From contig NZ_CP014634.1 in assembly GCF_001586215.1 (NCBI RefSeq), forward strand, positions 62,001 through 126,000: a stretch of DNA of 64,000 nt. The letters run 5' to 3'. This DNA is from Corynebacterium simulans (GTDB taxonomy: Bacteria > Actinomycetota > Actinomycetes > Mycobacteriales > Mycobacteriaceae). A program made the position numbers and the translations under genes. Under the pieces are notes generated by a model, which worked only from the letters and a program-made list of their open reading frames with translations, made no database searches and was not told the origin of the DNA. Positions 8,176 through 59,286 of the stretch are shown piece by piece. Within the stretch, counting starts at the first letter, position 1, and the number at the start of each line of letters is the position of its first letter.

Positions 8176-9489
8176 ATGGGTGATTTTCCACATCTAGCCA
8201 CCATCGATGCCAATCAGTGGCCGAGCGTAGCGACGCTTCCGGCGGTGAGCTTTGCACGTTTTAAAGCCCGGCGTGCGGAGGCGGAATTCGCCAAGGCCTG
8301 TGATCTCGCGGAGTTGGATCTGGATCCTGAATCTAAGGCAGAGGGCGGACCAGACCTTTCCGTGTTGCACGACGCCCTCTTCATTCGCATCGCAGCCACC
8401 GGCTGGCTTGGCTTTGCGGAATCTTATCTGGCGGGCGAGTGGACCACCGCTGACTCTGACAAGCTGGTCAAGGTATTGCGTGGACTGCTGCGTGCGAATT
8501 ATCGCCCGAAGGCGCGCGAGCTCGACGTCGAGCATTCCACCCCGGGTGAGTTACCCGTGGAATTGGTGCGTCTTTATGCCGGTGATGGCTATACCCATTC
8601 GGGCGGCATCTTTGCCAGCGGCGTTCCCACGACAGTCCGAGAGGCGGTGCCTAGCTTTAGTCCACAGGCTGGCCGCAAGGAACCTAAGGAGCACTTCGTT
8701 GACGTCACGCACGTTAGTGAGCCGACTGCGGTGGACCGTACCGATCTAAAGGATGGCCAAGAGCGTGCTGCGCAGTGGCTTCTCGACGCCACGCGCACCG
8801 GCGCCGGCACTCATCTGCTGGTTTATCCCGCAGCCGGAATGAATGTGGCTGTCGAAGCAGTCAACAGGCGGGCGACGGTGGATGTGCTGACTGCCGACGC
8901 CGAGCAAGTCGAGGACTTCAACGAAACCCTAGTGCTCGAGGGCGCAGCAGATTCGGTACAGGTTCAGCAGATCGATGACACCGTGCCGCATCCGAAACAA
9001 TGGCGTGGTCGCTACGACGCGATCATCAGCGTGGAAAAGCTAGAGCTGCTTACGCCTGCAGAGCGCAAGCGCTTCGTGGGGATTCTGGATCGCTCTCTGA
9101 TCCCAGAGGGCAGGGTCGCGCTCGCCTCGACTTTTGCTACCGAGACGATGACCCCGGCTGCCCGCTCGGCGTTACAGGTACTGCGCGCCTATGTCTGGCC
9201 CGGTCTGGATTACCCAACGCTCGAGGAAACGCACAAGCTTTTCGACCGCAACTCGAATCTGCGCATCGTCGCGCAGACGCACGTGGGCGGTCACTACGTG
9301 GAATCGCTACGCGAGCAGCGCAGCTATTTCGATGGTCATCTACGCGAAGCCGCGGCGGCAGGTTTCGATCCTGTGTTCCGCCGCCTGTGGACTTTCCAGT
9401 TTGCGTTGCGCCAGGCTTTGCTGGAGCTTGGCCAGGTGGATGCCGTGCAGCTCACGGCCACCCACCGCCACCGTGGTGGCCGCCGTTAA
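8176..9489 (+). CDS. Cyclopropane-fatty-acid synthase-like protein, motif-degenerate
   Basis: 437 aa, normal length for the CFA synthase/mycolic-methyltransferase family. Recognisable parts are YLAGEWTTAD in the N-terminal region, the helix LKDGQERAAQWLLDAT, the strand GRYDAIISVEKLELL, and the C-terminal LWTFQFALRQA. However, the SAM-binding glycine loop (normally LExGCGWG) reads LLVYPAAGMN, and the active-site segment normally containing SCAY is replaced by DGYTHSGGIFAS. Methyl transfer by the usual mechanism looks impossible; a structural or regulatory role, or decay, is possible. The frame is intact. Its TAA overlaps the convergent stop of the dld remnant in a shared TTAA. Confidence 0.8.
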   Translation: MGDFPHLATIDANQWPSVATLPAVSFARFKARRAEAEFAKACDLAELDLDPESKAEGGPDLSVLHDALFIRIAATGWLGFAESYLAGEWTTADSDKLVKVLRGLLRANYRPKARELDVEHSTPGELPVELVRLYAGDGYTHSGGIFASGVPTTVREAVPSFSPQAGRKEPKEHFVDVTHVSEPTAVDRTDLKDGQERAAQWLLDATRTGAGTHLLVYPAAGMNVAVEAVNRRATVDVLTADAEQVEDFNETLVLEGAADSVQVQQIDDTVPHPKQWRGRYDAIISVEKLELLTPAERKRFVGILDRSLIPEGRVALASTFATETMTPAARSALQVLRAYVWPGLDYPTLEETHKLFDRNSNLRIVAQTHVGGHYVESLREQRSYFDGHLREAAAAGFDPVFRRLWTFQFALRQALLELGQVDAVQLTATHRHRGGRR

Positions 9490-10079
9490 GGCGTGACCAC
9501 TGGGCGCGAAGCCCGCTCGAGCAGTACCGCGATTGAGTCGTAGGCCTTGCCGGAGATCATCTCCAGGCCCATCTCACAGGTGCGGTTGTCGGAGACGAAG
9601 GCATCGAAGTCTTCCGCCTCCAGGCTGGCTCGCTCCTCACGGGTGGCAGATTCCACCAGCTCCGGGTGCAGCATGACGCGGTCACCAGCGGAGCCGCAAC
9701 ACATGGCGCCCTCTGGCACCTTGGCTTCGCCGCAGAGTCCGGCCAAGGCAACGAGGTCATCGCTGATACCCATGTGGTGGGTAGAACACGTCGGATGTAC
9801 TGCGATCCTGCCCATAGAGTGCACGATCGGCAGGTGAGGGGCCACTTCATCGCGCAGCCATTCCACAACATCCATGATGCGCAGCTGATTCCACAGTTTT
9901 AGCTCGGCGTCGGAAAGCTCTTCTGGCACGTTGTCGAGCAAGCCATGAGTGCAGCTGGCGGCGTCGACAATGATCGGCAGTGCGCCCTCGTCGGACCACT
10001 GCCAGAGATCGCGCACGATCTTGGTGGCTTGGTAGGTAAAACCCTCCTTATAGCCCTTGGATGACCACGGGGTCTGGCG
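9486..10079 (-). pseudogene. 3' remnant of an FAD/Fe-S D-lactate dehydrogenase-type oxidase
   Basis: 197 codons encode only the C-terminal CCG-type iron-sulfur/quinone-side domain: TPWSSKGYKEG at the very start, VDAASCTHGLLDNV, HPTCSTHHMG and MCCGSAGDRVM. Full-length relatives have roughly 900+ residues with an N-terminal FAD domain and ferredoxin-like cysteines, all absent here. Homology stops at about 10071-10076, where sequence of a BASS symporter begins in the opposite orientation, and an in-frame TGA sits at 10080-10082. I read this as a deletion remnant, although a short in-frame GTG start at 10016 could still give a 176-aa product. Confidence 0.85.
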
Positions 10080-10295
10080 TCAGCATTAGCGCTTCAGTTC
10101 TTTACGCCGGAGGCTGCGTTGCCTGGCGTCGTTGCTGCGGTGTGGGCGAACATTACTGGCGCCGTGTTCGCGGCGCTGGTTCGCCGCAAGCCTTTGCCGG
10201 GAGAAAGCGGACCCGGAGGTGATGCCGAGACTGTCGGTGAGTCTGACTCTAGTGCACGGAGGGAGGCAGACGAGGTTTCTGTGCCTGCCGGTTAG
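10065..10295 (+). pseudogene. 3' remnant of a BASS (bile acid:Na+ symporter) family transporter
   Basis: From about 10071 the plus strand reads GLASALALQFF-TPEAALPGVVAAVWANI-TGAVFAALVRRK, which matches the last transmembrane helices of BASS-family symporters (family pattern GLA-A-AL, ALPG, VWxNITG). A hydrophilic tail then runs to TAG at 10293-10295. No start codon or upstream helices remain and the frame is closed at 10062-10064, so about three quarters of the protein is gone. Together with the dld remnant it marks a deletion joining two formerly divergent genes. Confidence 0.75.
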
Positions 10296-10320
10296 ATGGG
10301 AGATTGGCCAGCCCTGTCTG

Positions 10321-10348
10321 AAATGACATAATGTACATTATCGGACAT
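10321..10348 (-). other. Candidate dif site (XerC/XerD chromosome dimer resolution)
   Basis: A 28-bp sequence with 11-6-11 architecture. Read on the minus strand it has left arm ATGTCCGATAA (XerC-like), centre TGTACA and right arm TTATGTCATTT (XerD-like). The core ATAATGTACATTAT is a perfect 14-bp palindrome; E. coli dif has CATAATGTATATTATG. Actinobacterial dif sites share CCGATAAT and TTATGTCA as I recall them. It lies in non-coding DNA, and homologues of the surrounding genes in C. glutamicum lie about opposite oriC, where dif is expected. Confidence 0.75.
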
Positions 10349-10407
10349 TTATCAATATAGATAAACGCGATCGCCCGCCATTTTCGCGGTTGTCCGGCAT
10401 ACACTTA

Positions 10408-10446
10408 CACCACCGTTTAAAGTAACTGTGACTTTAAGCGGTGGTG
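10408..10446. terminator. Hairpin downstream of the YceI gene cluster
   Basis: CACCACCGTTTAAAGT (10408-10423) pairs with ACTTTAAGCGGTGGTG (10431-10446) with one G-T type mismatch and a 7-nt loop. No long T tract on either side, so it may be a bidirectional terminator or an mRNA end-protecting hairpin between the BASS remnant (+) and the small membrane protein gene (-). Confidence 0.55.
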
Positions 10447-10452
10447 TTTCCG

Positions 10453-10631: not shown

Positions 10632-11330
10632 CTACTTCTCGAGCGTTACACGGATATTAACTTCGCCTTCTTCGGCGATCTTTGCGGCGATTAGTTCTGG
10701 GGTCTCAATTCCATAATCCAGTCGGTTCACCGGAATGTTGCCGCCCAGGACAATCGTCTTGCCGTCACGGACAACGTCAAAATCTTCACTAACCTTCTTC
10801 GTCTTGTCCTTAATAGTAAGCTCGCCCGTCAGTGTCACCTTGGCCAACGAGCCGTCCTCAGGAACGTTCGACAAGTCAGCGGGCTCCGTCAGCTTGAAGC
10901 TGGCCTCCGGGTACTCGCGCGTGATGAAGAGCTTGTCCTTCATATTCTGGTCACGGACCTTCTTATCCGTGGTCAGGCTGGTCATATCGACAACGATTGT
11001 GCCTTCTTCAACCTTTTGGTCCTTAATTACGGCCTGACCTTCAACTTCCTTGGTGGAACCCGAGGTGCGGGTTTTCTCAGCAGGTAGGATTTCGTCGATG
11101 CTGAAGCCAACTGAGGTGAAATTATGCGGCGTACCAGCGATAACGTGCCATTTGCCGTCTAGTTCAGTGCTTGCTGGCTTGGTATGTGTGGCGTCGACAG
11201 GCTTGGTCTCTACGCCACGGCCCATGTAGATCGAGTAAAACAGCGGGCCAAGCGCCACCAAGGTTGCAATGAGGATCAGCACCACGAAAATGGAGATGAC
11301 CAGCTTGCGGTTACGTAGAAGTTTCTGCAT
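10632..11330 (-). CDS. YceI-family protein with N-terminal membrane anchor
   Basis: 232 aa. An N-terminal helix (LVISIFVVLILIATLVALGPLF) anchors or exports the protein. The rest is a YceI lipocalin-like beta-barrel: KWHVIAGTPHNFTSVGFSI near the start, repeated strand segments such as GTIVVDMTSLTT, ASFKLTEPADL and KVTLTGELTIKDKTKKV, and VNRLDYGIETP near the end. The family binds long isoprenoid or amide lipids; the ligand here is not known. It lies between a zinc-ribbon protein gene (6 nt upstream) and the small membrane protein gene (14 nt downstream), all on the minus strand. Confidence 0.88.
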   Translation of the reverse strand: MQKLLRNRKLVISIFVVLILIATLVALGPLFYSIYMGRGVETKPVDATHTKPASTELDGKWHVIAGTPHNFTSVGFSIDEILPAEKTRTSGSTKEVEGQAVIKDQKVEEGTIVVDMTSLTTDKKVRDQNMKDKLFITREYPEASFKLTEPADLSNVPEDGSLAKVTLTGELTIKDKTKKVSEDFDVVRDGKTIVLGGNIPVNRLDYGIETPELIAAKIAEEGEVNIRVTLEK

Positions 11331-11805: not shown

Positions 11806-12180
11806 ATGGCAGATCGCGTACTCCGTGGTAGCCGCATGGGCGCCGTCAGCTACGAGACGGACCGTGACCACGATCTCGCACCACGCCAGATGGTCAAGTA
11901 CCGTACCGAAGATGGTGACATCTACGAAGTTCCTTTCGCAGATGATGCGGAAATTCCTGAGGAGTGGATGTGCAAGAACGGTAAGCTTGGCACCCTGATT
12001 GAGGGCGAAGGCGTTGAGTCCAAGCCAGCTAAGCCACCACGCACCCACTGGGATATGCTGCGTGAGCGCCGCTCCATTGAGGAGCTGGATGAGCTTCTCA
12101 GCGAGCGCATTGAGAACCTGCGCTCCCGCCGTCGTTCTGCCGCTCGCCTGCTCAAGGAACAGCAGGAGAACCAGGGCTAG
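11806..12180 (+). CDS. rbpA: RNA polymerase-binding protein RbpA
   Basis: 124 aa. RbpA binds RNA polymerase and group 1/2 sigma factors, stabilising the open complex in actinobacteria. The N-terminal tail plus core barrel (VLRGSRMGAVSYETDRD, RQMVKYRTEDGDIYEVPFA, EIPEEWMCKNG), the basic linker and the C-terminal sigma-interacting helices (HWDMLRERRSIEELDELL, RIENLRSRRR) are all present. The ATG is preceded by AAAAGGATGATG. A SigH-like promoter lies about 70 bp upstream, consistent with induction by heat or disulfide stress. Confidence 0.95.
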   Translation: MADRVLRGSRMGAVSYETDRDHDLAPRQMVKYRTEDGDIYEVPFADDAEIPEEWMCKNGKLGTLIEGEGVESKPAKPPRTHWDMLRERRSIEELDELLSERIENLRSRRRSAARLLKEQQENQG

Positions 12181-58617: not shown

Positions 58618-59286
58618 TTAAATACTGCTGACTGGATTCTCGCCATCGATGAAAGCCAACGGGCTAGCCGGAAGGCTCTCGCGGCCAACAACTTCAGTAA
58701 TCACCTCGGCAACCAGCTCACGGCTAGTCTGGCCGTGAGGATTCGTATCCTCGATTACCTCGATGCCGCCCGCTGGCTCTTCCGTAAGCGCAGAAGGGCC
58801 GAGGATGACATAGTTCAGTTCAGAAGAATTCAGGCGGTTGTCTACCGCCTTCTTTGACTCAACGTAGGCGTACCAAGACTCATCATTGGGATCGGTCTCG
58901 TTGTGCGTTGCGCCAACGTAGGAGATCATCACGTAATCAGGTACCTTTTTGCCCTCTGCTTTGAGCAGCTCTAGGGCGTCGATAGTTGCCATTGCGCCAT
59001 CGCGATCTACAGCCCAGGTAAGGTCTGCGCCGCCACGTCCGCCGTTACCGGCACCCCACACCACGACGTCGAAGTTTGCGAAGAGCTCAGCCCATTCTTG
59101 CGCGCTGGTTTTTGTGATGTCCTTCAGCACTGCGGTAGCGCCTAGGTTTTCAATCTCTTCCACTTGGGACTCGGAGCGGATCAGCGAATGAACGCTGTGG
59201 CCCGCTTTGACCATCTTCGGGGTGGCAAGCAGACCGACCTTTCCGTGTCCGCCAATGTACAGTACTTTCTTTTTCGTCAAAGTCAT
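58618..59286 (-). CDS. Atypical NAD(P)-binding SDR-family protein
   Basis: 222 aa. KVLYIGGHGKVGLLATPKMVKAG is an atypical SDR cofactor loop (GGxGxVG), followed by the VVVWGAGNGGRGGADLTWAVD segment and WYAYVESKKAVDNRL, where YVESK supplies a Tyr/Lys pair. Similar proteins (NmrA/BVR-B-like) reduce small molecules or act as redox sensors; the substrate is unknown. TACGGT (59293-59298) ends 6 nt before ATG 59286. It converges on acnR (stops 5 bp apart) and is divergent from the ACT-domain gene. Confidence 0.82.
   Translation of the reverse strand: MTLTKKKVLYIGGHGKVGLLATPKMVKAGHSVHSLIRSESQVEEIENLGATAVLKDITKTSAQEWAELFANFDVVVWGAGNGGRGGADLTWAVDRDGAMATIDALELLKAEGKKVPDYVMISYVGATHNETDPNDESWYAYVESKKAVDNRLNSSELNYVILGPSALTEEPAGGIEVIEDTNPHGQTSRELVAEVITEVVGRESLPASPLAFIDGENPVSSI

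Follow-up and report, generated by a model that had tools for sequence, protein, structure and literature searches.

The 28-bp sequence at positions 10321-10348 of the window, the whole 64,000-nucleotide stretch of DNA analysed here, is almost certainly the chromosomal dif site of this genome. This had been the original prediction, and it is supported by a single copy in the genome, a location near the antipode of dnaA, converging polarity motifs, conservation throughout the genus and a fixed synteny, all of which agree with a chromosomal dif. The genome consists of one contig of 2,737,971 bases, of which the window covers 62001-126000.

As far as sequence can tell, the anatomy of the site fits every requirement of a dif: it is 28 bp long and holds two 11-bp arms flanking a 6-bp centre. 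Read on the minus strand it gives ATGTCCGATAA / TGTACA / TTATGTCATTT, that is, XerC arm, centre and XerD arm, an orientation that the original prediction did not contain. The features of the site and its main landmark are as follows:

10321..10348, minus strand: 28-bp chromosomal dif site, almost certain from its sequence, its sole perfect copy in the genome and its conservation in the genus
10338..10348, minus strand: putative XerC-side arm ATGTCCGATAA, named by alignment with the E. coli dif
10332..10337, minus strand: 6-bp central region TGTACA
10321..10331, minus strand: putative XerD-side arm TTATGTCATTT, named by the same alignment
11806..12180, plus strand: rbpA (PF13397), a landmark that holds its place beside dif genus-wide

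The predicted 28-mer and its perfect core palindrome are both present, the latter being the 14-bp ATAATGTACATTAT at 10328-10341, and 23 of the 28 positions match an actinobacterial consensus. The site is also intergenic, as had been claimed, since the plus-strand relic frame to its left stops at 10295 and the minus-strand YceI-family gene to its right has its 3' end at 10632. A mechanically called plus-strand frame of 64 aa (10132-10326) covers the first 6 bases of dif; it is probably not a real gene.

Allowing up to two mismatches, the window contains the palindrome ATAATGTACATTAT a single time, where 100 shuffles averaged 0.02 occurrences, and the whole genome contains it at one place only. 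The genome was also searched with both arms fixed, the centre free and up to two mismatches, using the reversed pattern as control. The only perfect match is the site at 10321-10348, two further matches with one mismatch have unlike centres, and the total of 14 matches compares with 9 for the control, so that only the 10321-10348 site stands out. A second or better copy, which was to be looked for as a check, is thus found nowhere else in the genome, and the site has the one copy per chromosome expected of a chromosomal dif.

The dnaA gene of the same genome was used as origin landmark, in place of a mapped oriC. The match to the DnaA domain covers 1,466,195-1,466,680 on the minus strand, 1,394,346 bases from dif, which is therefore only 25,360 bases (0.93% of the genome) off exact opposition and sits near the antipode of the match, as a terminus site should. 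Six equal-scoring matches to the DnaA domain, in frames of 257 codons, are also found at 58883, 204582, 329232, 848971, 1370605 and 1955363 of the same genome; they are probably IstB proteins of an IS21-type insertion sequence, and one of them sits about 3 kb to the left of the window.

GC skew was taken on 28% of the chromosome in 39 blocks of 11-20 kb, skipping remnants of 2 and 4 kb, and the tally leaves out one block holding dif and one holding dnaA. On the left arm 16 of 19 blocks have positive skew, the exceptions lying at 2,055, 2,329 and 2,683 kb; on the right arm 16 of 18 have negative skew, the exceptions lying at 82 and 274 kb. This leaves 5 of 37 blocks with the wrong sign. Over the terminus stretch of 351,971 bases (352 kb), which is continuous if the contig is circular, the cumulative skew reaches its maximum at genome position 99,338, or 37.3 kb of the window, and is nearly flat between dif (4117) and this maximum (4373). 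The extremum had been predicted at 10.3 kb of the window; it is near, 27.0 kb (1.0% of the genome) to the right of dif, but not exactly there, and the far-away extremum named as evidence against a dif did not occur. According to Kono et al. (PMC3025954), dif positions and skew shift points are strongly correlated but not exactly the same.

Polarity motifs (KOPS/AIMS) converge on the site as well. Using the actinobacterial AIMS octamers as defined in PMC2830990, 44 of the 47 octamers in the 352-kb stretch point to dif, while the best switch point, 21.8-34.4 kb to the left of dif, accounts for 45. Of the GGGNAGGG copies, 22 of 26 point to dif, with a best interval of -1.2 to +33.3 kb that includes dif; of the GGGGGA copies, 69 of 75 do, and one of the two best intervals contains dif. 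Over all sampled stretches, AIMS octamers with and against the expected orientation number 41 and 18 on the left arm, and 48 and 5 on the right arm.

Across the genus, the 21-bp core (up to two mismatches) was found in 149 of 151 genomes, as one copy in 146 and as two in three (G044, G051 and G128). The remaining two, G112 and G118, have no RbpA match either, so their assemblies probably miss the dif region. Synteny was followed in 147 genomes, leaving out G065 and G073 and, wherever a genome has two sites, counting the one that shares a contig with rbpA or is closer to it. Both dif and rbpA could be placed in 146 of these and lie on one contig in 144, in all of which (144/144) dif is upstream of rbpA in the same order and orientation, at a distance of 1,203-9,035 bases (median 1,787). 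A second, overlapping set made of the best 80 of 298 RbpA relatives, 79 of them labelled Corynebacterium, has exactly one dif (up to one mismatch), upstream and in the same orientation, in 78 loci; of the two exceptions, L149 starts 1.7 kb before rbpA and L179 has no site. On contigs longer than 1.8 Mb, drawn from 30 loci and assumed to start at dnaA, the relative position of dif is 0.45-0.54 in 20 of 23 relatives, and 0.38, 0.43 and 0.72 in the other three.

In an alignment of 31 sites, whose inner 21 columns had been used for site finding and whose outer ones had not, conservation is concentrated in the 28 bp. Most of these columns hold 1.2-1.9 bits and three outer ones 0.10-0.64; outside, the next-but-one column to the XerD arm reaches 0.95 bits, and none of the rest exceeds 0.66, most being near zero. 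The main core forms among 78 sites are TGACATAATGTACATTATCGG (49 sites) and TGTCATAATGTATATTATCGG (18 sites), and the window carries the commonest genus-wide core unchanged. Between these two forms, an arm change GAC/GTC is coupled to a centre change GTAC/GTAT throughout the genus.

The stretch beside the XerD arm is often rich in G. This was counted in 78 sites, comprising the window and 77 named loci, after one too-short locus had been dropped. On the XerD side, at about 8-40 bases from the core, 43 of 78 sites have GGGG pointing toward dif and 8 have CCCC. On the XerC side, 2 sites have CCCC, which there is the sense toward dif, and 12 have GGGG. With growing distance on the XerD side, the number of sites with GGGG drops from 23 and 17 to 3-7 of 78. 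The longer GGGGAG occurs in the XerD-side stretch of 14 sites, against 0-2 in nine control stretches, and the window itself has only GGGAG in its own stretch (about 10284-10316). The pattern resembles polarity motifs of the GGGGGA type. It was picked after viewing the 31-site alignment and the loci are related, so the G-rich stretch counts as a lead.

The proteins that act on a dif site are also encoded. Among four tyrosine-recombinase matches in the genome, one at 22.5 kb is a XerD-type protein (355.9 bits, cut-off 329.6). The protein at 2,482.6 kb scores highest with the XerC model, at 312.8 bits, below the curated cut-off of 335.15, and passes the tyrosine recombinase model NF001399 (289.4, cut-off 279). 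For a third match, at 43 kb, no NCBIfam model scored within the limit set. FtsK is best matched in a 1,154-codon open frame at 2,537 kb, where PF01580 exceeds its cut-off. XerC-type, XerD-type and FtsK-type genes are thus all present, the first with a score under the XerC cut-off.

These components would act in a well-known order. An odd number of crossovers would join the replicated circular chromosomes as a dimer, and septal FtsK would then pump the DNA along the polarity motifs toward the terminus, bringing two dif copies together and activating XerC and XerD, which would exchange strands around the 6-bp centre TGTACA to give two monomers. XerCD binding, synapsis and strand exchange at this site are predicted by analogy with the known E. 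coli pathway. In PMC11898615, FtsK is described as reading polar sequences to the terminal dif and activating XerCD, with the crossover at dif resolving dimers.

Two relatives hold additional dif-like sites (L076:8399-8428 in G044 and L079:1824-1853 in G051), each upstream of a related helix-turn-helix (HTH) gene. These extra sites, at 1,244,405 in G044 and at 1,830 of contig 35 in G051, are alike in 28 of 30 bases, and a blastn comparison of 18 kb of G044 with 8 kb of G051 (E 1e-3) found no similarity beyond the site. The HTH genes just downstream of them show 45% identity. In G044, an integrase-family match covers residues 1-317 of an island protein and scores 27.3 bits (cut-off 27.1); the contig of G051 has genes for an integrase-family protein (52.1 bits), a Prim-Pol protein and a D5-type primase/helicase protein. 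A 37.7-kb element spanning the two dif copies of G044 was considered and rejected, as many of the genes inside look chromosomal (judged by reading only as secA-, pflB-, NDH-2- and CMAS-like); an island-like gene run of about 8-9 kb at one end of this interval contains the extra site. The HTH protein has a match in 63 of 242 genus genomes, and among the 30 HTH loci inspected a dif-like site was present only in G044 and G051. The extra site of G128, with two mismatches and its outer arms missing, may be due to chance.

It is conceivable, if rather doubtful, that small corynebacterial islands with a tyrosine integrase of their own, as in G044 and G051, also bear an internal dif and use the host XerCD as a second recombination route. 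If so, the host XerCD would resolve multimers of an excised, self-replicating form of the island, or would move the islands. A literature search for mobile elements that use dif turned up only a paper on Lactobacillus amylovorus. Six stretches on viral contigs also have a dif-like site. Three are the same sequence, phage-labelled and on contigs of up to 48.6 kb (L113:4306-4329, L114:4950-4973 and L118:1367-1390), with the site some 1.1 kb away from an ORF of 885 aa that has terminase and intein-splicing matches. The others (L115, L116 and L117) are phage-labelled contigs of 86-187 kb, one of which has an imperfect second copy 3.9 kb away. The extra sites of G044 and G051 and those of the viral contigs are leads only.

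Such sites near integrase-family genes lend some substance to the idea that the window site is a dif mimic, left by a mobile element that uses the host Xer recombinases, with the true dif elsewhere. This reading is rejected as extremely unlikely, being contradicted by the single copy and by the synteny: the own genome has no better or second site, and the place beside rbpA is the same in 144 of 144 genomes. Neither a second site nor adjoining phage or plasmid genes, the marks of an IMEX attachment site, were found. Among ten proteins scanned at 5.9-14.8 kb of the window, no integrase was found; two matched no family and eight belong to families of chromosomal type (CAP, Pyr_redox_2, CMAS, CCG, YceI, RbpA, Glycos_transf_2 and LNT_N). 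The window DNA had no match among plasmids, and only one weak match among phages (E = 0.08).

A perfect palindromic core between genes could in principle belong to an operator bound by a regulator, or be an inverted repeat that arose by chance, and not mark a site of recombination. There is hardly any probability of this, given that the asymmetric arms are conserved too, that exactly one copy is present in 146 of 151 genomes and stands beside rbpA wherever the two share a contig, and that only about 3e-7 exact 21-bp cores are expected per genome by chance (at an assumed G+C of 58.2%). The skew maximum at 99,338 could in turn suggest that the window holds a decayed dif and that the working resolution site has shifted about 27 kb to that point. 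This is again most improbable, and is contradicted by the lack of any dif-like sequence (up to two mismatches) at the maximum; the nearest listed match, at 121,329, has two mismatches and an unlike centre. Neither does a core identical to the commonest form in the genus suggest decay, and dif suits the polarity motifs almost as well as their own best switch does. A chromosomal dif at 10321-10348 is therefore the reading retained.

The flanks of this dif site hold some further features:

10071..10073, no strand: deletion junction, with about 3.3-3.5 kb lost relative to three relatives (blastn against G050, G064 and G084)
9486..10016, minus strand: remnant, C-terminal 176 aa of an FAD/Fe-S oxidase (PF02754), 5' part gone
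10071..10295, plus strand: remnant, C-terminal part of a sodium/bile-acid-symporter-family gene, 5' part gone
10407..10447, no strand: hairpin with a 17-bp stem, 58 bp from dif, between converging genes (fold z-score)

Two divergent genes lost their 5' parts to this deletion, which lies about 250 bp from dif; their 3' ends remain. In G050 both are intact: the oxidase has 973 aa (PF02913, PF01565, PF13183 and PF02754; D-lactate dehydrogenase-like by reading), and the symporter-family gene, divergent from it, encodes 353 aa (PF01758). The remnants are 87.5% (over 176 aa) and 93% (over 44 aa) identical to them, respectively. Five relatives were fetched for this comparison and three show the break, with the sequences on either side of the junction lying 3,547, 3,254 and 3,253 bases apart in G050, G064 and G084; G011 matches the left remnant only and G108 matches neither. 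The two alignments overlap by three bases at the junction, which suggests a deletion by microhomology. The hairpin has a z-score of -4.72, with none of 200 shuffles as stable, and it is perhaps a terminator between the converging genes. An inverted repeat abutting dif in the window was also considered; such a repeat is present in 2 of 78 sites, within the range of the controls (0-9 of 78), and is thus nothing special.

The site locates the terminus of replication in this genome and, with a median distance of 1.8 kb upstream of rbpA, provides a landmark across the sampled genus. It leaves the understanding of chromosome segregation unchanged; modest leads come from the dif-bearing elements of two relatives and from the G-rich run that many show beside the XerD arm.

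The site is a genuine, ordinary dif, and corynebacterial sites like it have been reported before. Dif sites have been published for Corynebacterium aurimucosum, C. ulcerans and C. pseudotuberculosis (PMC2830990, PMC3164646 and PMC3022926); they are also 28 bp long, found by GC skew and the same AIMS octamers, and lie about 180 degrees from oriC, a likeness drawn from their description. The E. coli dif has the same 11-6-11 layout and similar inner arms. The closeness to it that had been claimed holds for the core but not for the full length, where just 18 of 28 bases are identical, so that the resemblance is mainly confined to the core; the XerC side of the window site has the actinobacterial CCGATAA form. 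The difSL/XerS system of streptococci and lactococci, as described in PMC2731167, likewise resolves dimers by a tyrosine recombinase, but it relies on a single recombinase and another site, whereas this genome encodes both XerC- and XerD-type proteins.
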